A stretch of 64,000 nucleotides of DNA from Ectocarpus siliculosus (Eukaryota; Sar; Phaeophyceae; Ectocarpales; Ectocarpaceae): the NCBI GenBank assembly GCA_000310025.1, contig FN648195.1, positions 242,825-306,824 on the forward strand, in the 5' to 3' direction. Shown here in pieces: positions 3,726 through 48,310 of this stretch. The stretch's first letter is position 1. Each line of letters starts with the position of its first letter. The notes below the pieces were generated by a model. The model was not told the DNA's origin and ran no database searches. It saw nothing but the letters and a program-made list of their open reading frames with translations. A program made the translations under genes and the position numbers.

Positions 3726-5700
3726 CTAACTTGAATTTTGGGGAAGGGGTTTGCACGAAAGCAGCTTTTTACGGGGGGGACGAAAAAAAAGACAGCGAAG
3801 GTGAGGACACTAGCTACCGTCGGAGACAGAGGCCGGTGCGTTGGCAGTATTATCCCACTGCCAGGGGAAGGCTATTTCCTCTCGTGATATGTAAACGAGG
3901 AGAAGAGGGTAGAAAGAGAGAGTGGCCATAGCGAGCAGAAGCATCTTTTTAATCGTTTTGCGCCGTAGCTTGAAAAATCAAAATGTACCAAATCCAAAGC
4001 CTCTACGTACATGTTTTTGCATCTTGACAACACACGGTGAACCAGCTACATTCGCGTTTAATCCGTTTGTTGGTTGGGCGTACACACGTGGAGAACGGCG
4101 GCGACGCGTTAAGCGACCCACAAGATCCGCCATTTTGGTCAAGTTTCGGCCTGCTGCGTGCAACTACGTACAGTTCACTAGTGCACCTCTAGAATCGTTT
4201 CTGGTTGTCTGCTGCTGCTGTCAAGTCGTGCGACGCCATTCACACACCATATCGGTAAGCCCTGGCAGTTTCGAGATTGTGGTTGCTTGTGGCGTGCCAC
4301 AATATGCTGCGCTGGTTCACCAAGAATCTCGGCGGGAAGATTGTGCTCCAATCGCAAAACGTCGAGCACCTCGATCTCGCGCAACAAGGCCCAAACTGAT
4401 AAACGGCACATTTTTGCTCGACGGGGTTGCTTAAGCTGGTATGCAATCTCCAAAAAGATGTAGACGTTTGTGTCTCCTGGGGATAATAGCAGGAGGGGAC
4501 AAATGAGATTTTACAGCGGTCGGCGGGGACACCGCCCGTTTTTTTCTATCCATCTACAGTAGCAGTTTGACCTGTGAGAAAAAAAAAAATGGTTCGAGAA
4601 TAAAACACCATCGCCCAGCCCGGGGGACACAGGGGACGGCGAGGAGCCTGTTGTAGTCTTAAGTAAACGCCGGGTGGTTGACAACGTTAGTGAAAACGTG
4701 CCATGGGGAGATGTGTTGAAGTTGTCTCTTTATCGTAGATGCGGCATAACCGCCGCCTCTTCGACACCTCTATTAGAGGTCTAGAGGGCAAACAGGGAAG
4801 TGTCCGATACTTCAATTCCTCATACCCCTAGCGCCGCGACCAGTACGAACATTATATCCGTACCCGGACAGCCACAGCCCATCGTAGTATTTTGTGCTGA
4901 TTCTGCGCGAAGCCGCCATAGCACTCCCTCCTGCTCTCGTGCTCTCTTGTGCCATCTTCTTCGTGTTTGCGTGTGTAGAGGTAGGTAGGTACTTCGGTGT
5001 TTCAAACGCCACGTATTGAGTGATACCACGATACAACCACATCGCGATAGAAACGAGATACTTCGAAGTACAAGATTTTCGGAGGGATGATTGTTTTCCG
5101 ATGCATACAACAACAAGTGTAATCACCCACACGATCGCCCGCTGACTTGCGGCAGCAGTGCATGTATCCGAAGCGGATGCCTCTGTAAATTGGAGACCGA
5201 CACGAACCACAACGTGAGTTGCACTGCACGGCGTGGTCCCCCATCGTCACCCAGCAGCGTTCCTTCCCATTTCCGCCATGTAGACCACCTACGTGTAGAC
5301 ACCATATTTCCAACCTGCCCCCAGCACGCTGCACGCACTGATAAACCCACCATCATGGTCCGCGCTGCCTACCGACCATGTGTATATGTGAGGTTGCCAC
5401 ATCCTTAATATTAACCGTAAACCCATACCATGCCATCGCTGCGGCGCCGCGGCTGTAGAATCTACAGCCACCAGGTCAGGACATTATGGAAGGGAGTTAT
5501 AATGTTATCCCATGCCCCCTGCACAAGCCCTGCACATAATGGGTTTAGAGGACGCACATATACCCAGTCAAGTCGTCCCCGCTTTAAAGACACGCAAATT
5601 CTCAGAAGCAGGTTGCCCAGCAGATATAAATATAGAGGGGGATACCGTTTTGATGACACGGGCCCCCCAACTTGGTGAAAATTACACTCGGAAAGGTTTT
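3726..5700. other. no gene recognised
   Basis: Only short open frames without family resemblance are present. The longest, 3922-4434 on the plus strand, encodes a Cys/Arg-rich peptide without any domain I can name and shows no splice context. I see no repeat copies of note. The segment is treated as intergenic. Confidence 0.5.
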
Positions 5701-5717
5701 CAACGTGGGGACGTGTG

Positions 5718-6172
5718 GAGACCACCTTCATCAAAGTACCATCTCCCCAAGGTCTGTCGAGGACGATTCCCTTTCTTCACAATGACGTCGACAGAGATGT
5801 CAGAGTGTCTGCTTTTGGTTGCAAAAGACACGGGTTGAAAACCCGCTGCTCACCAAATTTTCTTCTGCGCAACGGAAAAAGAAAAACGGTGGGTGGGCCA
5901 ATGAAGGACGCACTGGCTATCGAACTCGGAACTTCTGATGACGTGGCGGACGTAGCGCACCCGTGTAATCACGCACAGAGGATTGTGAAGAAAAGTGAAT
6001 CGCCCCGCCGCCAGCCGGTCGGGTTCCAGTTACCCCTAGAAGACTTCTCTTGCCTAGCAAACAGGAAGAAGGCTAAAAAAAGGGGGGGTAATAGGGAAAC
6101 CACCTTCATAGAGGTACAATCTCCCCAACGTCTGTCGAGGACGAATCCCTCTTTCACAGACGACGCCAAAAC
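5718..6172 (+). repeat. pair of about 70-bp direct repeats
   Basis: The segment at about 5721-5790 (ACCACCTTCATCAAAGTACC, then CTCCCCAAGGTCTGTCGAGG) returns in diverged form at about 6100-6170 in the same orientation. The origin is not clear; it may be a fragment of a dispersed element. Confidence 0.6.
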
Positions 6173-6174
6173 AA

Positions 6175-6305
6175 TGTTGTTGTTGTTGTCTTCAAGTTAA
6201 AACCGTTCCGATCTCTCTACCCAGTACCTCCATCTGCCGTCTTGACGCGGTCGATTCCCGTGGTCACTGGCTAACTTTTCCCGCCCAAAAGGTATCCTGA
6301 ATTAA
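6175..6305. repeat. diverged copy of the stretch at about 7080-7225
   Basis: This stretch contains a GTTGTTGTTGT run, a TTCCGATCTCTCT block and CGATTCCCGTGGTCAC. These occur in the same order and orientation at about 7080-7225, at the 3' side of LINE B. It looks like a second, truncated copy of the LINE B tail region. Confidence 0.55.
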
Positions 6306-7244
6306 AAATGGATAGGGTCCGCAAGTCAATAGGAATCAATGGCAGATAGCCTAGAACCTTCCGCTCGCCTCTACACGCTATGCGAGGTAAACATAGGCTG
6401 GAAGTCAACATCACGGGCCAGAGGGGTATGTAGGTGTACTCCCTGGTTAATGTTGGTACTTCACAGAAGATAAGAGAGACGGTCATCATCTGGAAAGGAA
6501 AATAAAAAGAGAATAGAGGGAGAGAGAAGACGCACGCCAGAACCACTACCGTAGCGTCAAACAAACAAACAAGACAATACAAAACCAAAAGCTACAAAAA
6601 GGGCCACCCGAGACAGGAAAGGCACGTCATCGCTCGTGGGGGGTCGGTGCAATGGTGCATTGATGGGGGGGGGGGGATCAGTCAATCAAGGGGTTCAATC
6701 CGGCGTATGTAGCGTCACTCGGTCCGCCTCTTCTCGTTTCCTTTCTTCCCTCGCCGTCTCGTCCGTCTGCTGCCCCCCTCCCGCCGCATTGGTTGTTGCC
6801 ATGTCCGTACTTTTGCCGGGCTTGTTTCGTTTGACCGCTCGTTGCCGGCTAGCCTCCTCTTCATCCTTGTGGCAGGAGGTCATGAACCTCGTACCTCCCT
6901 GCAGTACCCCCGTGCAACCCCGCTACACCTTGGCTGCTTCCGTCCAAGTTGTTTGCGGGACTCCGAAGACACATGACCCGGCCTCCGTAGATCCGTGCTT
7001 TGCCTCCAACATCTTGAGGTCGTCCTTCAGGCACATCTGCCAGTTTTACTCCGGTTTCCCCCAATACTCCGTTGCTGCAGCTGTTGTTGTTGTTATCTTC
7101 ACGTTAAAAACCTTCCGATCTCTCTGCCGACTGTTGTACGTTTCTCGGTCCGTGATCTACCACTTTGACGCTGTCGATTCCCGTGGTCACACGCTAACTT
7201 CCCTATTAAAAGGGTACTCAAATAGAATGCACCCCCCTCCGCAC

Positions 7245-7965
7245 TTAGTCAAGTGGTGTACCCGCCCCCGCTCCCGTGTCGTCCGCCAGGTACACCAGGT
7301 TCCACAGAATAGGATCATCTTCGCTGTATCGAACGACAACAACTTCGAGAGCCACGGCGAAGAAGATGTTGATTAACAGTGGGGACAGCACACACCCTTG
7401 TCGCAAGTCCTGTGTGACCCACAACCAGTACGATAGTTCTCCGTCGTCCATGCGCACCCGGGTTTGCATTCCGTCGTGGCATTGGCGGGTGAGGGAGATC
7501 GTCTCCGCGGGAATCCCGGCCCTGGCCAATACCCTCCACAGCAGCTCTCGATCTACCGAGTCACAAGCCTGCTGCTGGGTCTACGAAGAACATGTAGAGC
7601 GGTATTTTTCTTCTCCGCCCCAGCTCCTGGAGTCGCCGCACGACGAACAGCGTATCGACGATGGATTGCCGAGGTCGGAACACGCACTGCCCTCGGGAGG
7701 ATGTTGTTGGCTTCCCAGAAGGCGCTGGGGCGGTCGGTGATGATCTTAACGGGGACCTTGCCCACGTGAAGTAGCGGCGAGATCCCCCTGAGGTTGTTAC
7801 AGTTGGACCTGTTACCCTGTTCGTACAGCACGTTGATGGTTGCGTCCTGCAGCTCTTGCGGGATCTCTCCTCAGCTCCACACTTAACGAGGATGGCATGG
7901 TGGTGCTCCAGGACGATTGGTTCGTCGTCATCGACCTTGAGCAACTCGGGCAGGGAGGAAGTCAT
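7245..7965 (-). pseudogene. LINE B reverse transcriptase, frameshifted
   Basis: Minus-strand frames give QGNRSNCNNLRGIS (RT block 2), then PRQSIVDTLFVVRRLQE, then LRQGCVLSPLLINIFFAVALE and LVYLADDTGAG (active site). At least two frame changes lie between 7530 and 7835. The catalytic ADD is retained, but no single frame covers the domain. Confidence 0.8.
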
Positions 7966-9436: not shown

Positions 9437-10818
9437 AATTATATGTTACCGTTTGTCCCAGAGAGTTGTCTCGGAGTCACGGCGCGGCGTGACCCTCCAG
9501 CTCAGGACTATTTCCTATCCTCTCTCTGGTGCATACCCCCCACGGCATGCGGCCACTTCGCCACCCTCGCCGTGCTCTCTGCTGCTGCATGGCCCCGGTG
9601 TCCAAGCCCAGGGCTTTTGGGTCCAGTCTCATTTTGAAGCTGCCAGTTGGCTAGGTCACGAGCGACCCCGATCTCGCGACAGCGGTAGTTCCCGACCGCC
9701 GAATTCAGGATCCTCTGAACGGTGCTAGGGGCCGTTTACCGGTCTTTGTTGGGCGGTCTTTCGATGTCTAAGCCTTCTTGCTGACCTTGGCCCACCCCAG
9801 CGGGGAGGGGGACAGGCCGGAACTTTCGCGAATTTTTAAACAAACAACCAAATGAGCAGCAGCAGCTTTTGCTTCAGTTCCGGATGAAAGGATTTTTGGA
9901 GAATCTCGAACGGGAAACCCAGAATCTTATTGTAAACCTGTAGTGTATCATACAACCTTAGCCACTAACATTGTGCACCAGCGACATCTGCGGACGGTTG
10001 CGATGCAATGGTAACTTGGTGCCGGAGTTAGGAGTTAGACATTATGAAAGCGAAGATATGCAGAAACATTTCCTTTGTTTTCGGAGAGGGAGATCTGCCA
10101 GCTCCATGGCGTCCTCAAAGTGGTTATTCTTGCTTGGTCCCCGATTCTTTCTTTTCCGCACTTTGCTCCGCCGAAGTCCGTTGAATTCGTTGCATTTTTT
10201 CCACCACATGACCATTCCTTCTACTGTCTTGTGCTGAGATGGCGACGAAGAGGGAAACAGCTCAAAGCATCGCTCCAGCTAGATGGTCTGCGGCATAATT
10301 TTGATGTTGCACAACACAGCCGCAGCTGCTGTTCGCAGCATGTAGATGGTCTGCGGCACAACTTATACACGCTGGGTAGCAACCTCCGATGCGCCGCTGC
10401 TGAAATGAAGAAGCAAGTTGTTTCGCTTGTTGCGAGAAGAGGGTCTTATTCCGCGGGCACAAAACAATGATCACATCAGAACTTTGGTTGTTGTACAACA
10501 CAATCTGGTGCAGCAGCATGTACGTGACTATGTATCGTGGTGCAGCAGTTTGTTGCCCTATGGATAACAAGAGGCTTTGTGAAGCATGTTCTGCTGTGAT
10601 TACTTTTCTCGGCATGATTATTAGCACACCAAGAGACATTTATTTATTTTCGTGCGGTGTCTCTCTGCCGCGTTTTTCGTTTGATTCACAGCAAGCGGTA
10701 GGCGTACGCGACGGTCGGCGGTCGGCGGTCGGCGGGATGCAACGTGTCCCCGCCAGTGCAAGCCAAGCGGGTCTTGCAGTAGCAACAACAGCGGTCGAGC
10801 CCACCACGGTAGAGGTGC
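9437..10818. other. spacer upstream of the NB-ARC gene
   Basis: No recognisable coding sequence. It contains a partial tandem duplication (next entry). The 5' end and promoter of the NB-ARC gene should lie here or just inside its first open exon, but I could not identify a convincing core promoter. Confidence 0.5.
10281..10363 (+). repeat. 63-bp partial tandem duplication
   Basis: AGATGGTCTGCGGCA occurs at 10281 and again at 10344, so a 63-bp unit is followed by a partial second copy of about 20 bp. Confidence 0.6.
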
Positions 10819-12144
10819 GTGTCACAGCAGTACCCACTTGCCCACCACGACACCACGTTTGATCGAAGGTGTTTTTGGTCCAATGTCCGAGCCTTAGCTG
10901 AGAAACCCTATACATACATACTCGAACTCCCTCCCTGCCCCCCCCCTCCCTCCCCTTCGCAGCGGCTTGAACATGTTGGTAAGCTGCTCGCCGAAAAGAG
11001 GCCTTGGCCCGCCTTTCTTCACATCGGAGCTCGAGCGACAGAGGAGTGGGAGGCTTGCCCCACCCTCGCCCAGGAGGCTCTGACATGGATGACGACGGCT
11101 GCAGTTGGGGTGCTCGACGTTGCGAGCGTAGGGCCCTTAGTGCCTGTGTGCCAGGCCTTGAAGGCGTTGATCGAGGCCGCCGAGGGTGCAGCCGAATGCG
11201 AGGACAAGGTACAGAGCTTGGTGTCCCAGTGCGCGTTCCTCGCCACCGTCTTGATCCAGCACGGTCGAGCGGTGGGTGCCCTCGCCCAGGTGCACAAGCC
11301 CATCCAAGACTTCGTCGTCACGACCAACGAGCTAGCAGGGTTCGCGGCTAGGTGGGCCAAGGACGGCAAGTGTAGAGCGTTTTTTTGCCATCGCCCAGAC
11401 CTGAGCGCCCTCGCCGGCTTCGAGGAGTGCCTCCGCGGGATAAGGAGCGACATCGCCTTGGTAGACGGGCTGGAGCAACACCAGTTGTTCTTGGCGGCGC
11501 TTCCCTCTTTGCGCCCCCCGAGGCTGCTGGACATGGCCGCGGTCCCCGCAGGAGCGCTTGACTTGCCCCGCGGCTACGTGGAGCGAGCTGCGGTACAAGA
11601 AGTTGCCGACGGCCTCACCGCCCCGGAGGAGCCCCGTGCCCCCTACACCGTCGTCGGTTTGGGTGGAGGGGGGAAGAGCGTGCTGGCCTCTGCTGTCGTT
11701 CGCAAGCCCAGCGTGAGGGAACACTTCCGCGGCGGTATTTCCTGGGTGAGAGTGGGGAGGGGCGCGAAGAATAGCCTGCTTCCTCTCCTCCAGGGCCTCG
11801 CCAGGGAGATGGGCGTGGCGCCGACGGATGCTCCGCACGCGGTGCCTCAAGTTCTTGACAGCCTCGAGCAGGTGCAGCAGCACCTGGCTGCAGTCGTGGC
11901 TTCTACCGGCACCTCCCCACGCCTGGTGGTGCTGGACGATGTATGGGAGCGTGAGGTCGTGGACGCGCTTGTTCCTCTGGGATTCAAGGTGCTGCTGACC
12001 ACGCGTGATTGGTCGGTTGTTGTTGTGCCGGCTAGACGTCTGGATCTTGGAGACATGACGGAAGAAGAGGCGCTGGAGCTTCTGCGGAAGACGAGCGGGA
12101 CTGTGGGTCAGCCTGGGGACTATGTCCGGATGAAGATGACCAAG
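10819..12144 (+). CDS. NB-ARC gene exon 1: N-terminal helical domain and P-loop half of NB-ARC
   Basis: The open frame has 442 codons to the donor (AAG/GTGATC). Counting from 10819, GLGGGGKS is at residues 280-287, LVVLDDVW at 369-376 and LLTTRD at 392-397. Residues about 90-270 form an Ala/Leu-rich helical region ([19 protein letters not shown] then [10 protein letters not shown]). It resembles the four-helix death-inducing N-termini of other NLR-like proteins in character only. The first 48 residues lie upstream of a pyrimidine-rich acceptor (CTTCGCAG at 10955-10962) and may be intron. Confidence 0.8.
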
Positions 12145-15100
12145 GTGATCGATGCGCCTTGAATCTCACGTCGACAACGTGTATCAGCATGTGCTTGTTT
12201 TGCTGATGCATGGCTTCATACACTGTCTGCCTGAGTGCCGCCTGGAGTGGAGCTTGGCATCGGTTGGTGGCTTGATGCTAAGTGTCACAGGTGTTTATGC
12301 GACGAGCAACGCACGTCGAGGTTGGTTTGGTGTGTTTCAGTCTTCTCTGATTGCATGCCTCCCGTTCCCCGTGACGGCGAGAAAGACATGACACCGATGA
12401 CGGCTTTGATGCTGAGTGGTGCGTCCCTTTGTTATTTTCGATTGTCAACCCATGATGTCGCTACCTACCTCCCTAGAGCCTGCTCTATTGTTCGCTTCAA
12501 CTTGTAGTTTGGATATGTCGGCGGCGTTGACCGTGTGGTAATATCCCTCCATACATCTGTTTCGCCCGGTGTACATGTAATAGTGATGCACTGCTGTCAA
12601 ACACATCATCGTGCTCGACTCGACTGAGCATTCAACTGCCGACGAACACCGATCCAGGTCGTTGCGCTCTGTGGACACCTACCGTTGGTGCTCGCTATAG
12701 CGGGTTCCATGTCCGCCGTGAAAGGGAAGGGCTTGACCGCCGTCGCCTGGGAAGAGCTGGCCAAATCGTTTGAGAACGTGGCAAAGAAAATGCGAGCTCG
12801 GGGCCAGCAGTCATCGGCTATCAAAGTGGTCCTTGAGACCAGTTTCGACTCCTTGGCAGTACAGAAGCAAGAAGAGTTTTTGAGGATGTCTGTGTTGGCC
12901 GCGGGTGCTCTTGCGCCGATCGAGATGCTGCGCAATCTGTGGGAGATAGAGGTACGTTGCGGCGTCTCTTTTAACATGTAGCTGGACGTCTTGAAAAGGT
13001 CTGCAAATCATGTGCCTGTTAGATGTACGGGCAAATTCAGTGGGTTGCGCGAGAGAGCGTATGCCGTGGTTTCGACGGTCTTCGAACTGTGCTGCATGTT
13101 GACCCCAGTTCATGTATTTCCGGTGTTACGTGTATCTGCAGGACGCTGAGGGTACGCGAGACGAAGCTGAGGGTCTGGTGAACAAATGCCTTCTACACGC
13201 TGTGGGTGATGGTGGGTACCGTGTGCACGACATGGTCCTGGAGTTTGCAAAGACTAGCATCAGGGCAGACGAGGAGACGGTGGAAAAGGCCACAGCACTG
13301 CAGGCCCAGTTCCTCGGGAGATTGGACGTGCTCAAGAGTTACCGAGACCCAGAGCACGGCGCTGGAGACCGAGGATTGTTCTTTTTGGATTCCCTCTGGC
13401 GCTCGGTGGAGAAGCTCTCGGGGGACCCTGAGCTGGAGGTTACCACGTATCGCGCCAGCCTCAGGGAGTTGGAGTCCTGCAAGGCGACGGAAGACATGGC
13501 GAGCTCCTACTCAGCTGTGGGTTTTTTGTTCGATGCCCAGGTATGGCAGATTTGGTCTGTTTGCCGATTCGGCACCATTCGTCGTGTGTACGTTGTCTAC
13601 AGTAGTTTTGTATGATGCAGCGTCGCTGCGCATCGTGCGGCTGGAAAATATTTTTTCGTCTGGCCGAGCGTTTGTTATTTGCAAGGCGTTCGATGACAAA
13701 CTCGCTCGCAACTCTAGGTTATTCGAGGTGTTGGCGACTTCTTTCAATTTTCGTTGATGCCACTCCGTTACACCAGCTGACAACAATACGGGCACCTTTT
13801 TGAAATAGAGACCAGAGTCTACGAATGTTCTATAGATAGGATGTGAGTATCCTTCTTTCTGAGAAAGCTCTGGAGAGAATTGGTGTACGCAGGCATTTTG
13901 TTTTGTCGTTCGGGGTGACCAACTGTGTTCCCACAACCTACCGCTTTTCGCTCAGAGAAAGTACATTGAGGCCGAACCACTCCATGAGAGGGCACAGGCC
14001 ATGCAAGAGAAGGTGCTGGGTCCAGAGCACCCTGGTGTGGCCCAGTCGCTCAACAACCGGGCGGACTTATTGAGAGTGCAGGTGAGAGCCGCCAGAATTT
14101 TCTAGTAGAATTCTCATGGCCTCACGTCTCGCCACGAAAAATGGGGGGACTGTCGCCATAATAAATAGGACAAAAACGCACCACACACAACACACACAAC
14201 ACACCTGTGGATGTTGTACACGGTGCTAAACAACCGGGCGGAGTTGTTGTAGAGCCAGGTGAAAGTCAAACGATGTTCTAGAAGCTTCAAGCAGAAAATG
14301 TTTCTCCGCAGTTCGAGACCCGGCTTGTGCTGAAACACGACCCTGCCATCCGTCGGCTGTACTCCAGGGTAAGTATAACGAGGCTGAGCCTCTGTACAGG
14401 CGCTCGCTGGCTATCGACGACAAAGTTTACGGTCGTGACCACCCTGAAGTCGCTACAGACCTCAACAACTGGGCGGGTTTGTTGATGAACCAGATGAAAA
14501 TCAAACGATTTCCTAGAAGCTTCACGCAGAGAATGTTCCTCCGCAGTTCGAGGACCGACGTGTGCTAAAACACAACCCTGCCACGCTTTCGACGCCATTC
14601 CAGGGGAAGTATGAGGAAGCCGAGCAGCTGTATGAGCGGTCACAGGCCATGCGGGAGAAGGTGCTAGGTCCAGAGCACCCTGATGTGGCCAAGTCGCTCA
14701 ACAGTCGGGCAGGAGTGTTGTACGCCCAGGTTAGAGCCGTCAATTTTGCCCGGAGTTATGTTGTTGTTTCCTTTGGAGGTTGTTAAGCGTTTGTTTCTCC
14801 GCAGTATACTTTATCTCCTTGACCACACTCGCGTGACGCTGTCTTTCCGTTTCCAGGGAAAATATGCTGAGGCAGACCCTTTGTATCTTCGAGCCATTGA
14901 GATTGTAGAGAAAACGCTGGGTCCTGACCACCTAGCTCTTGCCACACGGCTCAACAACCGGGCGGGGTTGTTATCTGCCCAGGTGAGAGCCAAACGATGC
15001 TTCTAGATGCTTCTGCAAAATGCATTCCTCCGCAAGTTCTAGATCTATTTTGACTTCAATCCGACCTTCTGCCACAACGTATCTTGTTAAGTACGCTAAG

Positions 15101-16905
15101 AGCGTCACGCTATGCACAGCTATGAGGATCACGTTATGCACGGTTACGAGGGTAGGGTCTGGGCCTGGAGCGCCCGGATGTCGCCCTGCATTTGTTCTCT
15201 CGCGCATGCACCATCACCAAACGACCTTCTCCCTTTCCCGCCACAATCCAGGGTAAGTATAACGAGGCTGAGCCTCTGTACAGGCGCTCGCTGGCTATCG
15301 ACGACAAAGTTTACGGTCGTGACCACCCTGAAGTCGCTACAGACCTCAACAACTGGGCGGGTTTGTTGATGAACCAGATGAAAATCAAACGATTTCCTAG
15401 AAGCTTCACGCAGAGACCGTCCCTCCGCAGCTCTAGGACCGACGTGTGCTAAAACACAACCCTGCCACGCTGTCGACGCCATTCCAGGGGAAGTATGAGG
15501 AAGCCGAGCCGCTGTATGAGCGGTCACAGGCCATGCGGGAGAAGGCTAGGTCCAGAGCACCCTGATGTGGCCAAGTCGCTCAACAGTCGGGCAGGAGTGT
15601 TGTACGCCCAGGTGAGAGCCAAACGATGCTTCTAGACGTGACAAAAAGAACATTCTGTTCTATATCTCAGTTTGACTGAAATCCCACTTTCTGCCACAAC
15701 ATATCATGGCAAGTATGCTGAGCCAGAGCCACTATATCAGTAGACCCTAATTTGATTGCACTATGCGTACAACTCTGCCACGACTGCATGCCAGGGCAAG
15801 TACGCTGAGGCCGAGCAAATGTACGAGCGGTTACAGGCCATCCAAGAGAAGGTTCTGGGTCCGGAGCATCTTGATTTGGCCACAACGCTCAACAACCGGG
15901 CGGGGCTGTTGGGCAACATGGTGAGAGCCGAATAAACCTTTTAGATACGTACATGAAGGAGTGTTGCCCCGATGATTCCTTCACGTACATGAGCTGATAT
16001 GCCGATGCTGGTATCCTCAAAAGGTTCCACACCATGTACGCATACTCCATTTGCCATTTGTGTCATCTGACAATACTTGTTCAAAATCGTGTGCAAATAT
16101 TTGGTTCCAGACAAATACTCGTTTAGAATCGAGTGCAAATACTTGTTTCTAGACAAAAACTGGGTCAAGATCGTGCGCAGATATTTGCTTCTAGACAAAC
16201 ACTGGGTCAAATCGTGTGCCACCTACCATTTTATTTGCTTCCAAACAATTATTTCGTCAAAATCAGTGTCCACGTGCGTCCGTCTTGTACGTATGAACTG
16301 GGTGGCTGGTTGTCAGCAGGTCAGAATTCAATAGAGCACGTGTAGGATGTGAGCTCAATAGAGTTTTAGATCGAAAATCTGAACAACTGTAACCATGATA
16401 TTTTCCTAGAAGTTTTATTGATTGACAGAGGAGTGAGGACTGGGTGCACGTGGAAACAACCACATGATGCCCCCGCTTCATGTACGCCTAATCACAAACA
16501 GACAGGTAGCAGTGGGTAATCATTTTCTGATGCTGTCTGCAGAAGTTGCGCGTCTGTCTACATCAACTACAAGTACATTATCCCGAATATTGGGCTCCAG
16601 CGCTAAACGGACAGTCAGATAACTTTGCAAGAACCAAAGGGTACCCGAATGTAGCTCATGAGTTCTTGCATGAGTATGACGGGAAAGTAGAAAATGCCCG
16701 TTTGGTGACACCATACTTCGGATCTGCCACGCGAAACGCCCAAACCCGCGACGGAGCCACGATTCGACTAGGCTTGTCCCCTAAATGGCCACGAACCCTC
16801 TTTGAATGCGTCCTTACAACACGCAGGATCGAGACGCGATGTTTTGGCTCTGCGGTGGACGTAGCAGAAAGCATAGAACAAGGAAGGATTTCGCCTCGGC
16901 AGTAG
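10819..16905 (+). CDS. NB-ARC-TPR protein, candidate immune receptor (multi-exon)
   Basis: A STAND-class ATPase with C-terminal TPR repeats, predicted to be a cytosolic recognition switch. In-phase exons: 10819-12144 (a good acceptor at 10961-62 may start this exon at 10963), 12658-12951, 13142-13540, TPR exons 13956-14081, 14604-14729, 14857-14982 and 15795-15920, and a terminal exon 16543-16905 ending in TAG. All these introns are phase 0 with GT-AG ends. Exon 1 carries the P-loop GLGGGGKS, Walker B LVVLDDVW and LLTTRD. Exon 2 begins with [17 protein letters not shown] (the GLPL motif). Exon 3 has [10 protein letters not shown] (MHD motif). NB-ARC-TPR proteins with one TPR per exon and strong exon shuffling are described from Ectocarpus. 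TPR exons at 14368, 15252 and 15488 are damaged and were left out of the chain. The true start codon is not determined. An alternative last exon may lie at 17523-17621. Confidence 0.85.
12658..12951 (+). CDS. NB-ARC gene exon 2: GLPL region
   Basis: Acceptor GATCCAG, donor GAG/GTACGT, 98 codons, phase 0 at both ends. It starts [17 protein letters not shown], the NB-ARC GLPL motif, and continues with the ARC helices ([21 protein letters not shown]). The intron before it is 513 bp. Confidence 0.85.
13142..13540 (+). CDS. NB-ARC gene exon 3: winged helix with MHD motif
   Basis: Acceptor TATCTGCAG, donor CCCAG/GTATGG, 133 codons, phase 0. It contains [10 protein letters not shown] then [12 protein letters not shown], the ARC2/winged-helix end with VHD in place of MHD. 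A linker of helices leads to the TPR exons. Confidence 0.85.
13956..14081 (+). CDS. TPR exon 1 (126 bp)
   Basis: Exactly 42 codons, phase 0-0, acceptor TTTCGCTCAG, donor GTGCAG/GTGAGA. It encodes one kinesin-light-chain-type [23 protein letters not shown], then [18 protein letters not shown]. Confidence 0.85.
14195..14270 (+). pseudogene. TPR exon relic
   Basis: CTAAACAACCGGGCGGAG, then a TAG, then CCAGGTGAAAGTC preserve only the last third of a TPR exon (LNNRAEL, stop, Q) and its donor. The first two thirds are gone. Confidence 0.55.
14368..14493 (+). pseudogene. TPR exon 2, open frame but donor GT changed to AT
   Basis: The acceptor (ACTCCAG) and 42-codon frame are intact: [19 protein letters not shown], then [13 protein letters not shown]. 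The exon ends AACCAG/ATGAAA where functional siblings end CAG/GTGAGA, so the 5' splice site is lost. It is not a U12-type AT-AC site. The exon is probably skipped or non-functional. A near-identical copy lies at 15252-15377 with the same defect. Confidence 0.75.
14604..14729 (+). CDS. TPR exon 3 (126 bp)
   Basis: 42 codons, phase 0-0, acceptor CCATTCCAG, donor CCCAG/GTTAGA. One [23 protein letters not shown], then [17 protein letters not shown]. The damaged copy is at 15488-15611. Confidence 0.85.
14857..14982 (+). CDS. TPR exon 4 (126 bp)
   Basis: 42 codons, phase 0-0, acceptor CGTTTCCAG, donor CCCAG/GTGAGA. One [23 protein letters not shown], then [17 protein letters not shown]. Confidence 0.85.
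15252..15377 (+). pseudogene. TPR exon 5, copy of exon 2 with lost donor
   Basis: The frame of 42 codons is the same as at 14368-14493, including the AACCAG/ATGAAA end, so the donor was already lost before the duplication. Confidence 0.75.
15488..15611 (+). pseudogene. TPR exon 6, copy of exon 3 with 2-bp deletion
   Basis: The splice sites are intact (CCATTCCAG and CCCAG/GTGAGA) but the exon is 124 bp. GAGAAGGTGCTAGG of exon 3 reads GAGAAGGCTAGG here, so inclusion would shift the frame. Confidence 0.85.
15703..15745 (+). pseudogene. TPR exon relic
   Basis: GGCAAGTATGCTGAGCCAGA, then GCCACTATATCAG and a TAG give only the first third of a TPR. The usual acceptor AG reads ATG. Confidence 0.55.
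15795..15920 (+). CDS. TPR exon 7 (126 bp)
   Basis: 42 codons, phase 0-0, acceptor CATGCCAG, donor AACATG/GTGAGA. One [23 protein letters not shown], then [17 protein letters not shown]. Confidence 0.85.
16072..16265 (+). repeat. 48-bp tandem repeat, about four copies
   Basis: A unit around CTAGACAAA...CTGGGTCAA(A)ATCGTGTGCAAATA repeats about four times with divergence, inside the intron between TPR exon 7 and the last exon. The period of 48 leaves the minus strand open, which explains a repetitive 94-residue antisense frame there. Confidence 0.75.
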
Positions 16906-17640
16906 CAGGTTTGTTTGATGTGTCACCCGCTTTCTGCTTCATTCATACGCGCACACACAAATTCGTGCCATCGGAAATGTTGAATCATATGTATTCCCAT
17001 TTTCTTTTGACTACCGTAGTAGTTATTTGTGATGGCATCCATCGGGGTTTCGTACCCATCTCAGTCATGGCGCGGATATCCTGTGGATGAGCAAGAACGA
17101 TATGGTGTAATTTCCGCACCGGTATTCGGTATTGCCGCACCCTGGTGCGATTGCACCGATACCCCGCTTCGGGATTGTCGTTAAAGACGCACTTCGAGTG
17201 TAGGTTGCGTGCTACCGCGGAGTGGCTCCGGCTGCTTTTCAAGCTACCTCCGTACCTCCGAGTACAATACCGTTTGATATGCAGGCGTTGCCCAATGCGC
17301 CCGAACACTGTCAGGTTATGAGGGGATCGTCGAAGGCAGTAGCATTAGCCGCAGTCCCAGCGCTACCCACGGTGGGCGCAGGCAGGACGACAGGACTGCT
17401 ACCATCGAGCATAGAGATGGGGATCCGGGGCAACATCTGGCGCCCCGATTGTCCGAGACGCCCCCGCCGTATCCCGAAGCGTTAGCGGTGGGTAATCATT
17501 GATGGCATATGTCTGTCCGCAGAAGTTGCTCAATCCGAGAGGAACGCGTCTGTCTTACTTCAACTGCAGTAAATTGTCCCGACTTTGTCCGAGGTCCGGC
17601 ACTAAACGGATAGTCAGATAGCTTTGCTACATGGAAATGT
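16510..17640 (+). repeat. duplicated terminal-exon segment (16510-16640 and 17483-17640)
   Basis: AGTGGGTAATCATT...TCTGC(C)GCAGAAGTTG and the following CGCGTCTGTCT, CACTAAACGGA and GTCAGATA blocks occur in both places in the same order. The second copy keeps an acceptor and a 32-codon open frame with a TAG stop (17523-17621), so it could serve as an alternative last exon. Confidence 0.7.
16543..16905 (+). CDS. terminal exon of the NB-ARC-TPR gene
   Basis: Acceptor GCTGTCTGCAG with a phase-0 entry matching TPR exon 7, 120 codons and a TAG stop. The sequence ([17 protein letters not shown]...) has no domain I recognise. The first part is repeated at 17523. Confidence 0.6.
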   Translation, partial: KLRVCLHQLQVHYPEYWAPALNGQSDNFARTKGYPNVAHEFLHEYDGKVENARLVTPYFGSATRNAQTRDGATIRLGLSPKWPRTLFECVLTTRRIETRCFGSAVDVAESIEQGRISPRQ

Positions 17641-17711
17641 CATTTTCGGCAGCACCGACTCACAAGCCCTTCTTCTTCTGCTTTGACCTCTAACACTGCC
17701 TGCATGTTCAG

Positions 17712-20700
17712 AGGAACGGGTCCTGCGAGGACCATTCTCAAACACCACGGACGGCCCCGGGGTTGATCCCCAAGATCTCTGAGCTGACCAAATCGATGCC
17801 CTCGAGTCAGCAGACATCGATGCCGATGCTGGTATCCCCTGAAGGTTCTGAGTGCTTTGAAAGCGTTCGTGACGACGACACACTTTCGCAACGGCCAAAT
17901 TGGATCAACCAGCCATACTCTGAGCACATACCTAGCGTGCTGGATGCGGAAAAGGCGAAGGTGGATGCTGTCCACAGATCTGAACAGGCTGGCTGGGGCG
18001 ACGACCGCTCCGCAAGGCGCCGCTGGATGGACGCACCGATGCCTATGGACGCACAGCAATCAGCGCGGTCTAGTTGGACCAATGAGACCGATTCCGTGGC
18101 CGCACAATCTGCTCAACCTGGCTGGATGGAAACCAGATCCGTAGATGCACCCTCTACTCGACCTGGCTGGATCAACGAAGAGGGATCGGTGGGCGCACCA
18201 TCCACGCGACTTGGCTGGAATGACGACACCGGATCCGTAAATGCACAGTCGGAACAACCCGGCTGGAGTAACGAAATGGCATCGGTAACGGACGACCCAG
18301 GGTTCAGGCGCCTTGGTTTGGTACACGATACCGCATCCGTGGGCGCTCAGTCGGTACGACCCGGCTGGATCAATGAAACCTCATCGAGAATGGGCGACAC
18401 AGAGTTCGTCAGGTTTCATGCTCGGCAATCCAGCTGGTTGGCCAAGCCCGACTCCGTGGTACATGAATCGGAGTTAGCGCGACCTGATCGGATTCAAGGG
18501 GAGGCAAGGTCGCAGTCACCCGGATGGGTCAACGGAAAAAAGGTCGTCCCTACGTCGGGGGGCCGACTGTCAGGGTGGGATTCTCCGAAGAACACGCAGG
18601 AGGATCACTCGGGTGGCCACGAGATGACAATAGGGGGACGGTCCAGCTCTGAAGGCGCTGCAAGGTGAGTCCTAGATGTACGGGATACTTTCGTGCTATC
18701 GCCAATCACTTTGGTGTGTACCGAAGGTTGAACCGTGGCCATGCTGTCTTTTGCTGCGCCTAGAAGCACGCTGGTTTACCTTATCCCTTCGTTATGCCTC
18801 ACGTCCACCGGCGTTTGTTGTCAACACTGTGTCTCCCATTGTGATATGCCCTCTTTTTTTGTATAGCCCCACCTGCACCCGCTTCCGTCCGTTCCCTTTG
18901 TAAAGGCCCCAGAGCGAGTTGGCGGAATCCCCACCAACAATTGCAAAGCGTGTGACTGGAGGGGCAGCGCATGATATGTCTGGCACAGCCCATCACGGTG
19001 ATGGTGGTAGCGACGAGGGCGGGCTGCTGGGTCTGATCATGGAGACCAATAGGGAGGAAGCCATCCGCAGGAGAACCGCGAGGTTGCGTGGGATGGAGCG
19101 TGCTCGTCGCGTTTTCTCGTCTTCCCCGACCGAGCGGATCCCCAAAGAGATGGGAGACTCGCCGAAGCAGCGAGCCCCTCGACAGCCAACTGCCGAGGTG
19201 CCAGCGGCGAAGATCGCGATCGTACGTTCAAAGACTCTGCCCGCGCGTGAGAGCGTGTCTACGCCGACCCCGATAGCCGTTAGAGCAAAGCGATCGCCTA
19301 CTCCTACTACTGCGCGGTCGAATTTTGGCGAAGGTGTTGCATCTTCGAGCCCGGCCGCAAGGCGAGACATGCCTAGTTTGAATGGCAATGACAGAGCGGG
19401 GGAGCGCGGGGGGAGGGGCCGGCGAGACGGGACAAACAAGATCCGTTCAATACGGCGCAATGCTAGTAGCGACAGGGCTGGTTCGATCAAAGTAGGCGCT
19501 AAGGAGGCCAGGCGTTTTTCGTCGGGGGTTCCGCGTGTTTCTTTCGAAGGTCTCCCGCACAGTAATTCTCCGCGGAAGATAGGCAAGAAGGCGTCTTCCC
19601 CCGCACGGGATCCAACGACAAGACCCCCCATTCCGGCGGCGGCGGTGCAGCGTGGTTCCGGAGTTGCGGTGTTGCCAACGACTGATGGCGAGGTAAGCAG
19701 CGAGCGGGAAATGATGAGTGGTTCCACTCCTCGAGGAAAGCCTCCTCTTCCCTCGGAAACGCCCGACAGTGCCGGCAGCGAAAATAGGTGAGCAGCTTTT
19801 ATGTCCATGTTTTCCACCTTTGTTGTCCTGTCCCCATCGCCTTGTGAATCGTGGCCCCTTGCGGCGACCTTAGCAAGAATTATGCATATCAGCTGTGTCA
19901 AGTCGGCGATGTACTCCCCAGGCATATGGTGCACTCGACTGCTCGTTGTCGGACCACATGTTCCCGTGTCCTTTCTGCACAGTGTAAATTGCCCGAGTCG
20001 CTGTCGGTGTCACACTCGCATGTTGACTAATTTCGCCTACGTTCGGCGGATCGATTAACCAGCGCGCTGGGAGGAAAACCCGTCAACCCAGAATTCCGGG
20101 GCAACAAGGGGCCACAGTCTTCTCCACGCAAGAGACCGCAGACGATTTCCGATCGCACCGTGAACATGCAGCCCCCTGCGCACAAACCACGCGACACTCC
20201 GAAGCGTAGAGGCAAGTCCCGCAAGCCTGAAGAGAGTGCGGACGGCTCCTCACGCAAGTCGAATAACGACGAAGCCCGTCCACGTAGATACTCCGAAACG
20301 AGCAGCACGAGCAGCTCAGACAGCGCAAACCACGGCAACGGGAACACTCGACGTCGAGACCGCCTGCCGTCGTCAGAGGTGGCCCCGGAGGCAGTAGATT
20401 TGGTGCGGGGCAGGACTTCTCTGGATCAGCCTCCAGCTCAGCCAACCCCGGGGAGGAAGGCCTCATCAACGAGCGTGCGTTCTGCTCCTAAACGAGAGAT
20501 CAAGATGTGGAACAGCAAGGACCCCGCTGGTGCGGCCGCGGCAGCTTCGTCTGCTTCTGCTGCTGCGCCCGCCCTTAAACTAGCAGTAGGGCACGCGCAA
20601 CGAGTGGTTCTGCCCTTGTCCAAGCAGATATTGCCGACAGGGCGAAGAGTCCGGGGACAGCAGCCTTTTAAGTGAGTGCCCCCTCCTGCATACCGTTTGG

Positions 20701-23700
20701 TCACCAGTATGCGCTGCTGGCACAGCGTCATGTACAGGTGGTGATTGTGGATGACGCCAAGTAAGGGGTTTTTGCAGCTGCTGTCGTGGACGGGTTACAG
20801 TACCGTACACAATAATGCTCGTTTTTGGGATAACTACTGTGTAGTGCTGGTGACATCTTTCTCTTTCAATGTGCGCCATGCCTTTTTTCCCCTCGGCCCC
20901 TCGATGAACAAACACGGAGGCTGGGCACGCCCAGAGAGCGCAAGACGACACGAAGCCCTTCGCGAACACGCATGCGAATCAAGTCTGACTTGCCGCCATT
21001 GGAGGAAGTAGGCATCCCCACGAGCGTGTCTACGCCGACCCCGGTAGCTGTTAAAGCAAAGCGACCGCCTACTCCTACTACTGCGCGATCGCATTTTGGC
21101 GAAGGTGTTACACCTTTGAGCCCGACCGGAAAGCGAGACATGTCTAGTTTGAGTTACAATGACAGAGCGGGGGAGCGCGGGGGGAGGGGCCGGCGAGATG
21201 GGACAAACAAGATCGCTTTATTCCCGCGCGTTGCTAGTCGCACCAGGGCCGATGCGATCGAAGTAGGCGGCAAGGAGGTGCCGGGTCCGGAACACCCTGA
21301 TGTCGCCCAGTCGCTGATGATGCGGGCAGGATCGCGTGGAAAGCAGGTGAGAGCAGTCCCGTTTTCCTGGGATACTTCGTGCATTCATGTTTGCGTGTAG
21401 ATGATTGTAGTCCTCGGGGAGGCAGTAGACAAGAAGGTCATGGGTTTCGAGAACCCACGTGGGGCTGCAACGCTCAACAACCAGGCGTGTGGGCCGGGGC
21501 TTGAATGTCAACTGGGAGTCGAATAAGTTTGTCGGAAGTTTCATAGGGGCCACACTTGTGGGTGGCAAGGCATTCCCGTTTGTATTCCAGGGCAAGCATG
21601 TGGAAGTGAACCCTCTGTCCGTTGGAGCCCTTGAACTCCTTGGTTCAGCCGTGGGCGAGGAGCACCCCGATTCCACTTCAGAGCTCACAAACCAGATGTT
21701 GTTGTTGAGCGTCTGTCCCTTTGCATTTCTAGCGTCGACCACGTTCGTTTTGCGGTTTGGCGTCGAATTCCAGGCCAAGTATGAGGAAGCTGAACGGCTG
21801 TACCAACGCTCCGTCGCCATCCGCGAGTATTATTTTGGCCCTGATTACCCTGCGGTGGCGACCACACTCAACGACTGGGCGACGTTGTTGGCCAGCCAGG
21901 TGAGAGGCACGCGACGCTTCTAGGTGCTTTGTTGAAAAACGCTGAATATTGCTCCGCACTTCCAAATGTCAATTCTAACCCGACTGTTGCCAATACCCAA
22001 ATTTGTTGAGCGTTTGTTCCTCAGCATTTCTAGAGTCGACCGCGTTCGTTTGGCGCTTCGGCGTCGACTTCCAGGGCAAGTATGAGGCTGAACCCCTGTA
22101 TCAACGCTCCATCCATTGCATATGGCGATAACCGTTTCAATGCTCGGTGGACCGTCCGCTCAAAGTCACCACCTGTTTGCGATGCAGGGAAAGTATGCTG
22201 AGGCCAATGCACTCTATGAGCGGTCACAGGCCATCCGCGAGAAGGTGCTGGGTCCGGAACACCCTGATTTGGCCCAGCCGCTGATGATGCGGGCAGGCTT
22301 GCTGGGGGAGCAGGTGAGAGCATTCGGGTTTTCCTGGGACAAGTTGCGTGGTATTCGTGTTTGTGGGTAGATGTTTTTGTAGTCCTCGGGCGTCCAGGTA
22401 GTAGACAAGAAGGTCATGGGTTTCGAGAACGCACGTGGGGCTGCAACGCTCAGCAACCGGGTGTGGTTGTTCTGAACTCGTTTTTTTTCTGTTCACACTA
22501 CTGACCACGTTCCTTTCGCGCTTATGCGTCGAATTCCAGGGATCGTCCTAGGCCAAACCACTCCATGAGTGGTCACAAGCCATACGAGAGAAGGGACTGA
22601 GCGCGGCTTTCCCAGATGTGGCCCGGGGGTTGAAAAGTCAGTTGAGAATCAAATGTCTTTGTCGGAAAGGGGCCACACCAGTGGGTGGAAGACTTGCTCA
22701 GGTCTTGTGAGATGTTGCTGAAGTCGCAAATCCCGATCTCGCTCTTGCAGGCGGAAACTCGGCGGACGGCAACTAGAATTGAGGACGGAACAAGCGCGTT
22801 TGACACCCGAACGGACCTACAAGGCCAGGTCACTGATCCGATGGGCCCTCCGATAAACCCATTCTCGGAACCCTCGCGGGCGCAGCAGGGAGCTAGAAAG
22901 TCCGCCGAAGAGGATGCCGACATCATCAGCGGGTTCGAGTCGAAAGAATCGGCTATCGATTGTGAGTGCGAAATGATTGTTGGCTCCCCAAAGAAACTTA
23001 AGAGTAGTCCGTGAGCTTTTCCACCTTGATCACCGACGGCCTAATTGTTTTAAGGCCTGCTGTTCAACGCATCAGCCGTAGGCGTCAATCTAACTTTCAA
23101 CGTGCGAAATTTGTACATCTCTCAATCGCGATTCTTCCGGTTTTGAAACAGGGGGCGAGTGGGAACTACTGACGGAAACGTTGCAGGCTGGTGAGAACTA
23201 CCGGTCAAGGGATGGCGGTATCCGCCTCAGTGTTCAGCACGGTAGCCTGAGCGGCCCTGGACCGGGTCCCGTTCGCCTTCACCTTGCAACTCAGCTTTTG
23301 AGCTGTAAGGGTCAAGACTACTTCACCACCACCATCGTGCACTGCCCCCCAGATCATCGCTTCCAAGAGCCGCTGCTGCTTGACTTTTTTCTCGACGATC
23401 CTGCCGTCCGCAACGGGAAGGGGGCTCTGAAGAAAGTCCTCAAACGCTACCAGGTACGTTTTCTCCAGACGTAACACACTTGGTCCCTTTGTAGGGGTCC
23501 AGAGTCCAATCGCAAGGGAATGTGTGGGCTCCGTATACAAAATGACGCCATCACCAGAAAATAAGAAAGTGGAACCCCAAAATTATGAAGTTATGTTGTT
23601 TTCCTTCGTCTTTTCCAATACATTGTAGAATCATCAACAATACGTGCTCGTTTATTGCGTGGCATGCGTCGGCATTTTCTGTAACAGATTCTGCGCATGA

Positions 23701-24557
23701 GTCACGGTGAACACGAATGGCAGCCATTGAGGCGGGAAGACATGTTCTTGGTGGAGGATCGCGATTCGACATATCTGAGGGCGCACATTGACCACTTTAC
23801 GGTGTTCTCCTGCTGCATGAAATGCGACCCTACTTGCGGGATCACGTGGTTGAACCACTCCGACAAGCAGGGGGTACTAGTGCACAACAATTCCAACCAA
23901 CAATTGTTTTTAGTCGTGCTGCCCACGAAGTACGTGGCTGTCTGTGACAAGCGGCACGCCGTCCAACTTGCAGTAGGTGGGTCACTACCGGGTGGTGAAG
24001 GTATCGAGGTCGGCGGGAGATTCGAACGCAATAAGCGCACTGAGTATGTGTGGTTACCCCAAGGGGAAGCCCCTTCGGGCCAAGAAGTCTTGCCATGGGC
24101 GCAAGAACAGAGGCTGAGGCTGCGAGAGGTTGGTTGCGTAGAGCGTCTACTCATCTGCTCTTTGAGTCCAGTACGCGGAGGTCCCTTGTCGACCCAAGCA
24201 ACACCCCCGTCACAATCTAGCCCTCGGCAGATGACCCCGGTATCGACTGTCCCTAGCGGCGAAGGCCAGTATCGTGTGGTGAAGTTTTATGAAGACCCTA
24301 TTGTCAAGGGGGGCGACGGCCTTGTCATTCATCAGTCCCGTTTGAATGTTCCGCCGCGGGATGAGTGCTGTGTTCGTGCAAAAGGGGTGAACCTCAAACA
24401 TGTTGCCATGGTTCTTGCAGGTCTGGGTGAAGGTAGCGGAGAGGAGGGGAAAGGCGCAGAGGGAAAAGACGCAGAGGAGGGAAAAGACGCAGAGGGAAAA
24501 GACGAACAAGAGATAAAAAAGTCCAGTGCGAATTGGTACTCCAAGCTGGTAGGGTAG
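17712..24557 (+). CDS. GW-repeat/TPR/ZU5-like protein (nine-exon model)
   Basis: A chain of nine exons splices in consistent phase: 17712-18664 (ends phase 2), 18906-19787 (2), 20063-20671 (2), 20935-21346 (0), 21774-21899 (0), 22188-22313 (0), 22751-22961 (1), 23152-23453 (0), 23688-24557 (TAG). Donors are GTGAGT/GTGAGC or GTGAGA except GTACGT after 23453. In order the product has a Trp-rich repeat region, Ser/Arg-rich disordered segments, half a TPR, two whole TPRs, a linker, a ZU5-like beta domain (GGIRLSVQHGSL to HIDHFTVFSCC) and a lysine/glutamate-rich tail. ZU5 domains occur in ankyrins, UNC5 and PIDD as interaction or self-cleaving modules. The 5' end is open: the first ATG in frame is 17798 and an upstream exon is possible. 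The combination is not one I know. A role in signalling is inference. Confidence 0.65.
18083..18420 (+). repeat. 54-bp/18-residue Trp repeat in exon 1
   Basis: About six diverged 18-residue units around PGWINETGSVGAQS repeat in frame. Over the whole exon there are 12 tryptophans, eight of them in Gly-Trp pairs. Confidence 0.8.
20935..21346 (+). CDS. chimeric exon: disordered segment joined to half a TPR
   Basis: Residues from SVSTPTPVAVKAKRPPTPTT to RRDGTNKI copy exon 2 of the same gene (19246-19510). At [15 protein letters not shown] the sequence switches to the second half of a TPR exon like 22188-22313, keeping its donor GCAG/GTGAGA and even its intron downstream. The acceptor CGCCCAG (20934) enters with one base and the exon leaves in phase 0, so it converts the phase-2 exons upstream to the phase-0 TPR exons downstream. 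Confidence 0.8.
21591..21709 (+). pseudogene. degenerate TPR exon
   Basis: After an intact acceptor (TATTCCAG) the frame reads GKHVEVNPLSVGALELLGSA, then EEHPDSTSELTNQ. The TPR pattern is barely kept, and no donor follows (TTGAGCGTCTG). Confidence 0.6.
21774..21899 (+). CDS. TPR exon of the ZU5 gene (126 bp)
   Basis: 42 codons, phase 0-0, acceptor GAATTCCAG, donor AGCCAG/GTGAGA. AKYEEAERLYQRSVAIREYY, then GPDYPAVATTLNDWATLL. Confidence 0.8.
22075..22115 (+). pseudogene. truncated TPR exon
   Basis: After the acceptor GACTTCCAG the frame GKYEAEPLYQRSIH ends abruptly in unrelated sequence with a stop. Only the first helix is left. Confidence 0.65.
22188..22313 (+). CDS. TPR exon of the ZU5 gene (126 bp)
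   Basis: 42 codons, phase 0-0, acceptor GCGATGCAG, donor GAGCAG/GTGAGA. GKYAEANALYERSQAIREKV, then LGPEHPDLAQPLMMRAG. Its second half and downstream intron are the source, or sister, of the TPR half in the chimeric exon at 20935. Confidence 0.8.
22537..22660 (+). pseudogene. degenerate TPR exon
   Basis: Behind GAATTCCAG a frame-shifted TPR can be followed (KPLHEWSQAIREKG, then PDVARGLKSQ). Frame changes and the missing donor make it non-functional. Confidence 0.5.
23152..24557 (+). CDS. ZU5-like domain and C-terminal tail (exons 8-9)
   Basis: Exon 23152-23453 gives GGIRLSVQHGSLSGPGPG, then PPDHRFQEPLLLDFFLDD, the first strands of a ZU5-like sandwich. Exon 23688-24557 continues HGEHEWQPLR...AHIDHFTVFSCC, the usual ZU5 end with the H-F-S/T block. 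A further beta-rich stretch (ITWLNHSDKQGVLVHNNSN) follows, then an acidic/Lys repeat (EGKDAEEGKDAEGKDE) and a TAG stop. The ZU5 assignment is by pattern and not by search. Confidence 0.6.
24428..24512 (+). repeat. GGGAAAAGACGCAGA tandem repeat in the last exon
   Basis: Short in-frame units of 15-18 bp encode EGKDAE copies near the C-terminus. Confidence 0.8.
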
Positions 24558-48210: not shown

Positions 48211-48310
48211 NNNNNNNNNNNNNNNNNNNNNNNNNNNNNNNNNNNNNNNNNNNNNNNNNNNNNNNNNNNNNNNNNNNNNNNNNNNNNNNNNNNNNNNNNN
48301 NNNNNNNNNN
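48211..48310. other. assembly gap of 100 N
   Basis: Exactly 100 N, the usual placeholder for a gap of unknown size. The sequences on the two sides (about 48053-48100 and 48311-48352) are inverted copies of each other. Confidence 1.

Follow-up and report, generated by a model that had tools for sequence, protein, structure and literature searches.

The question raised by this locus is how one candidate exon within a repeat array came to be built from coding sequence of several sources. The exon (20935-21346, 412 nt, entered in phase 2 and left in phase 0) lies in a TPR array of Ectocarpus siliculosus, within the 64,000 nucleotides that were analysed (G000:C458:242825-306824, hereafter the window; all features are on the plus strand unless stated). 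BLAST searches were carried out with 20600-21900 against the window, and further searches were performed against the 189-Mb genome, where every "only" holds among the best-scoring matches listed. Five places were listed as matching the chimeric exon in the genome (the exon itself, 19251-19507, a TPR exon, and two sites on contig C52). From these alignments the exon reads as S exon 5 joined to a fragment of S exon 3 and to half a TPR exon, S being a gene with a second copy on C52. The first piece (20935-21025, the first 91 nt) is 95% identical to C52:143904-143997. The second piece, termed c (21022-21278), matches 19251-19507 inside S exon 3 over 257 bp without gaps (86.8% identity, E 1e-86) and accounts for the other C52 match (C52:142182-142434, 85%). 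The third piece (21276-21346) represents the latter half of a TPR exon, donor included, and is accompanied by an intron (21347-21489) homologous to 22314-22465; 21270-21489 and 22237-22465 are 83.8% identical (E 1e-62). Its nearest relative found is the intact TPR exon at 22188-22313 (126 nt, phase 0-0), of which 71 nt were kept, followed by about 143 bp of that exon's intron.

The initial annotation had described a two-part exon whose left part copies 19246-19510 and then switches to the second half of a TPR exon, carrying along the donor and downstream intron. The TPR half agrees with the alignments above. The copied left part stands for 21022-21278 but not for 20935-21025, which come from the end of S as found on C52, and a two-part origin was therefore rejected. 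Pairwise alignment, which it had proposed as a check, gave a significant left-part match and placed the breakpoints at 21022-21025 and 21276-21278. An open frame without a stop extends from 20834 to 21397, and the claimed conversion from phase 2 to phase 0 was likewise found. An exon born by fusion inside exons is thus upheld, whereas a simple fusion within one gene gives way to three pieces, a rearrangement with four seams, and a copy on C52. Both joins of the chimeric exon fall inside coding sequence, and this exon is not a whole-exon unit bounded by introns. The sole N run of the window is at 48211-48310, and all seams are thus clear of marked assembly gaps. On sequence grounds the formation of the exon from three sources is well supported, and its service as an exon is that of a candidate.

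The S block (16627-21025) is about 92% identical to C52:139569-143997 (L001 1070-5498); over 16629-21025 identity is 91.5% across 4489 aligned columns with gaps included, and 233 of 4338 columns differ (5.4%) without gaps. Three parts of the block, searched against the genome, placed S at two loci only, the window and C52, with no further S remnants among the best-scoring matches listed: the ORF at 18904-19788 matched C52, itself, and c, and the left part (16440-17000) matched itself and C52. The flanks of S on C52 (676 bp left and 702 bp right) had no other match in the genome, which ruled them out as repeats. Exons 2 (17712-18664, phase 0-2), 3 (18906-19787, phase 2-2), and 4 (20063-20671, phase 2-2) have donors and phases at matching places on C52. 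The exception is exon 5, which on C52 runs 11 nt further to the donor CGCAAC/GTAAGT and can be read as a symmetric exon, 105 nt long and of phase 2-2; that donor is absent from the window, where GAGC leads into the copied 257 bp. Acceptors agree between the copies except at exon 3 (AAG in the window, CAG on C52) and exon 5 (CAG and GAG). A candidate start exon (17277-17490) has on C52 an ATG and an open frame to a GTGAGT donor; in the window a 4-bp indel breaks the ATG frame, leaving a GTGGGT donor and no in-frame ATG. Window S may therefore depend on an upstream start, which, if the candidate exon is real, would favour S as an internal part of an NB-ARC–TPR gene.

No known domain was found in four ORFs of S and its exons (Pfam and NCBIfam, E 0.1), and the exon-2 ORF had no relative in one scan of viral contigs. 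A scan for bacterial-type promoters and terminators near the S start stayed at chance level and is of no use for a eukaryote. A long antisense ORF (18993-20009, minus strand) spans S exons and an intron and is also long on C52 (338 aa in the window, 400 aa on C52); antisense coding was set aside, as this ORF is crossed at 19961 by an indel of 1 bp that distinguishes window S from C52.

Upstream of the TPR array lies an ORF with an NB-ARC domain (10813-12162, PF00931, E 1.3e-15), and a joint gene of the two is a candidate. TPR exons here carry one repeat each at constant length and phase, 126 nt and phase 0-0, as in the last intact exon left of the S block (15795-15920), the next intact exon right of the chimeric exon (21774-21899), and the exon at 22188-22313. 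A model derived from seven exons of the window itself gave 17 TPR matches there, nine near full-length and eight partial or weak, the chimeric one included; it also found TPR exon matches on C10 and C2. The array is partly decayed. Three of the nine near full-length matches are damaged, two by loss of the donor and one by a 2-bp deletion. A TPR unit is duplicated at 14363-14738 and 15247-15620 (97% identical); in both copies one TPR exon has CAG/ATGAAA in place of the expected GTGAGA donor, and the second copy has a 2-bp deletion in its other TPR exon. Both related TPR exons are followed by an intron that contains a half-TPR relic (21426-21488 and 22402-22473), which by eye looks better conserved between copies than the exon parts. 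In L002 (C10:3219000-3228900), positions 5581-7689 hold seven full-length TPR exon matches spaced at 326-336 bp, and all six gaps contain a partial match (model positions 25-122 of 128) with neither model end. The C-terminal ORF at 23685-24554 was dropped as a guide to array structure after one weak match, on C80, at a locus that is 38% N.

The chimeric exon forms the right end of a larger arrangement of five pieces, all in one orientation: a dispersed repeat (16025-16509), a short piece termed b (16507-16628), 4.4 kb of S, c, and the cut TPR exon. Piece b is a diverged copy of the S interior (L001 1911-2051, in candidate S intron 1). Relatives of the dispersed repeat are 70-85% identical and occur on several contigs; three were compared. 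L004 and L006 continue alike past the seam point, with 88.7% mutual identity in 609 aligned columns, which makes the window copy look truncated at 16509. L005 departs from both at this point, with only short stretches in common further on, and was counted against a capture of S into the array. The repeat family contains a 42-bp tandem repeat (16072-16219 in the window), with relatives on C15, C29, C11, C1, C4, and C32. At each seam a comparator runs on past the break: the repeat in L004 and L006, the S exon on C52, the S exon 3 source, and the TPR exon at 22188.

Read by eye from left to right, the bases shared at the seams are TAG (16507-16509), GC, GAGC, and AGG (21276-21278), or 3, 2, 4, and 3 nt; the last replaces the AAGG initially annotated at the TPR seam. 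A junction compatible with microhomology had also been claimed, and short shared bases are indeed present, but one seam is weak evidence, as a single random seam shares at least 3 nt with P 0.05 and at least 4 nt with P 0.017. Summed over all four seams, the 12 nt of microhomology have P 0.001 (at least 12 nt at four random seams). With C52 bases taken as the source states the sum falls to 7, with none at the S/c seam (P 0.04), and this too was counted against capture. As sequence features, the seams would favour microhomology-primed joining, short of proof.

Each limit of the homology to C52 falls on a limit of one of the extra copies: b stops at 16626-16628, where S starts, and c starts at 21022, S ending at 21025. 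Such coincidence is expected if the window was rearranged and would be a double coincidence if C52 was. Parsimony thus suggests a polarity from a C52-type arrangement to that of the window. The opposite course, with the window arrangement as the ancestral one and C52 as recipient of a trimmed copy, fits with c being the more diverged copy; it would leave the C52 ends matching the b/S and S/c borders by chance, and the C52 exon continues to its GTAAGT donor, so we regard it as very improbable.

We favour, as the probable origin, copying of the 4.4-kb S piece into the TPR array of the NB-ARC–TPR locus by serial template switching of the FoSTeS/MMBIR type. A copying end would have started with a short stretch close to the 5' end of S (b), then switched backwards and replicated S as far as exon 5. 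After another backward switch it would have replicated 257 bp from S exon 3 (c), before landing inside a TPR exon and continuing into the intron of that exon. The phase-2 exit of S would thereby have become a phase-0 TPR exit, making the captured block readable within the array. The points counted for capture are the two-locus distribution of S in the searches with its three parts, the C52 flanks without other matches, the coinciding borders, the comparators that continue past the seams, the single orientation, and the 12 nt of microhomology, together with the similar synonymous distances, the phase-matched open chain, and the frame-preserving indels of the S exons described below. Donor-like copies remain at C52, 19251-19507, and 22188-22313, as for templated copies with the donor still present in FoSTeS/MMBIR events.

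Serial template switching is the simplest account, and stepwise repair is possible. In a stepwise history, which we hold to be possible if doubtful, a segmental duplication would have brought S into the array, and later deletions by end joining or unequal exchange in a tandem S array would have left b, c, and the TPR fusion. Tandem duplication does occur in the array, as at 14363-14738 and 15247-15620, and b and c share the orientation of S, as would be expected of remnants of a tandem array. Against it, other S remnants are absent from the genome matches listed for the three S parts, and a single event accounts economically for four simple filler-free seams and two returns to one donor.

The divergence of the copies bears on the same choice. 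Over codons common to all three, synonymous distances are 0.088 between c and window S, 0.097 between c and C52, and 0.063 between window S and C52 (0.082 for the last pair across the whole ORF), values similar enough that the copies may be roughly equal in age. From c to the two S copies the nonsynonymous distances are 0.17 and 0.18, against 0.07 between these. Of 254 columns, 25 are private changes of c, 6 of window S, and 9 of C52; all three differ in 3. The unequal counts speak for the stepwise history, since with 25 private changes c may predate the duplication of S, which would mean more than one event. Judged from the alignment, equal age with quicker protein change in c would fit, as would an older c. 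By eye, the private changes of window S and C52 cluster in different parts of the segment (21022-21278, 19251-19507, and L001 3681-3935), in a pattern like that of patchy conversion.

Whether the rearranged exon could be used was considered from phases and from coding constraint. The chain 15795-15920, 17712-18664, 18906-19787, 20063-20671, 20935-21346, 21774-21899, 22188-22313 has matching junction phases (0-0, 0-2, 2-2, 2-2, 2-0, 0-0, 0-0) and 1078 codons without a stop. Its exon ends were chosen by eye for GT/AG and an open frame, a choice that in part builds in the phase agreement of the S exons, and the chain passes over weak or broken TPR matches between exons (e.g. 21591-21711); it follows that an in-frame chain is possible, its use not being implied. 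Within this chain the 2-0 phase of the chimeric exon makes S readable inside the phase-0 array. Under the general TPR consensus, such an exon unit starts with helix B of a repeat and goes on to helix A of the following one, so the retained 71 nt would supply roughly a helix A. This would pair with helix B of the exon at 21774, a tidy boundary apart from the SR that stands where its relative has LL.

Differences between window S and C52 are fewer in the S exon stretches than in introns (110/2542 versus 70/707, P 8e-8, by ranges that predate the final exon ends). Each of the six indels in S exons has a length divisible by three, whereas outside them this is true of 3 of 16 (P 0.001; one alignment-edge gap was dropped and the candidate first exon was counted as outside). 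Exons 2-5 of S carry no frame-breaking indel in either lineage. A single neutral lineage should have collected 9-13 of them (P 8e-5 to 3e-6, if half the indels at the intron rate are assigned to the window lineage), so the frame entering the chimeric exon is maintained. This count is what weighs against a dead seam, in which the right seam and all beyond it would be a pseudo-exon in a decaying array. The eight partial or weak TPR matches among 17, the chimeric one included, and the three damaged near full-length ones are what such decay would leave, and we consider it unlikely. Values of dN/dS between the S copies are 0.74, 0.72, and 0.82 for three large ORFs, which indicates weak constraint on the S protein, though the frame is kept.

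For the new part of the exon (c and half TPR), no purifying selection was measurable. In c, 1.0-1.3 frame-breaking indels would be expected and P of none is 0.28-0.38, a test with no power. The c branch carries 19 nonsynonymous and 4 synonymous changes over the 70 codons where both S copies agree, against a neutral expectation of 6-7 synonymous changes (P of at most 4, 0.11-0.21; P of no stop, 0.55-0.63). The half-TPR exon differs from its relative at 12 of 75 positions and its intron at 26 of 152, a poorly matching tail included. The chimeric exon therefore remains a candidate exon. The same lack of measurable constraint, together with an open frame that reaches 21397, would also suit a separate S gene, in which the chimeric exon is not spliced to TPR exons and the frame runs through c and the half TPR to a stop just after 21397. 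That possibility, which we put no higher than tentative, meets an intact donor (GTGAGAG) in phase with two further intact TPR exons, and a candidate S start exon with a 4-bp indel relative to C52 and no in-frame ATG in the window. It concerns use and is compatible with either history; the dead seam likewise concerns use.

Under template switching, the furthest-reaching interpretation is that S is a foreign domain integrated in an NB-ARC–TPR receptor by one capture, with the chimeric exon having made it a phase 0-0 cassette. We offer this as a speculative reading, on balance improbable, of a kind whose logic is comparable to that of the integrated decoys of plant NLRs. If it is true, the receptor gained a new multi-exon domain in one stroke, and if the exon is transcribed, it illustrates one way for a candidate immune receptor to acquire an unrelated domain in a single step. 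In the usual picture of exon shuffling, whole exons are swapped via introns. Here, the sources of every part of the composite exon can still be read, so that breakpoints, phase change, and the fate of the frame are directly checkable; the exon is a clear fossil of exon construction and a candidate in its use.

Complex rearrangements of the FoSTeS/MMBIR type consist of several templated segments from one donor, joined at microhomology seams with no filler. The present arrangement resembles them in its templated segments and lack of filler, and may do so in its short shared bases; it differs in that its mechanism would have to be deduced from an old, diverged product rather than a fresh rearrangement. 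Exon shuffling in the NB-ARC–TPR and ROCO candidate immune receptors of brown algae has reportedly been described. What is already known is the shuffling of exons in brown-algal NB-ARC–TPR genes, and what appears new is an exon of three sources joined inside coding sequence. Among the literature matches listed, no title or opening of an abstract concerned a template-switched TPR exon, and absence from print is not claimed. According to Teng 2024, a study of ROCO genes, shuffling of repeat exons is described in brown-algal NB-ARC–TPR and ROCO genes, and somatic recombination has been suggested but not reported. The brown-algal NB-ARC–TPR genes have an NB-ARC domain followed by TPRs, one fixed-phase repeat per exon, and duplicated exons, as here. 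The unit that moves in the published accounts is reportedly the whole repeat exon. At the present locus, in contrast, the joins lie inside exons, an unrelated gene meets half a repeat exon, and the phase is changed. For domain gain in animals, PMC2926785 gives the joining of exons of adjacent genes as the main route, with duplicated segments joined to another gene and FoSTeS named as a possible contributor. The locus described here shares with those cases a duplicated segment fused to another gene, and differs from them in that the joining exon is itself composite.
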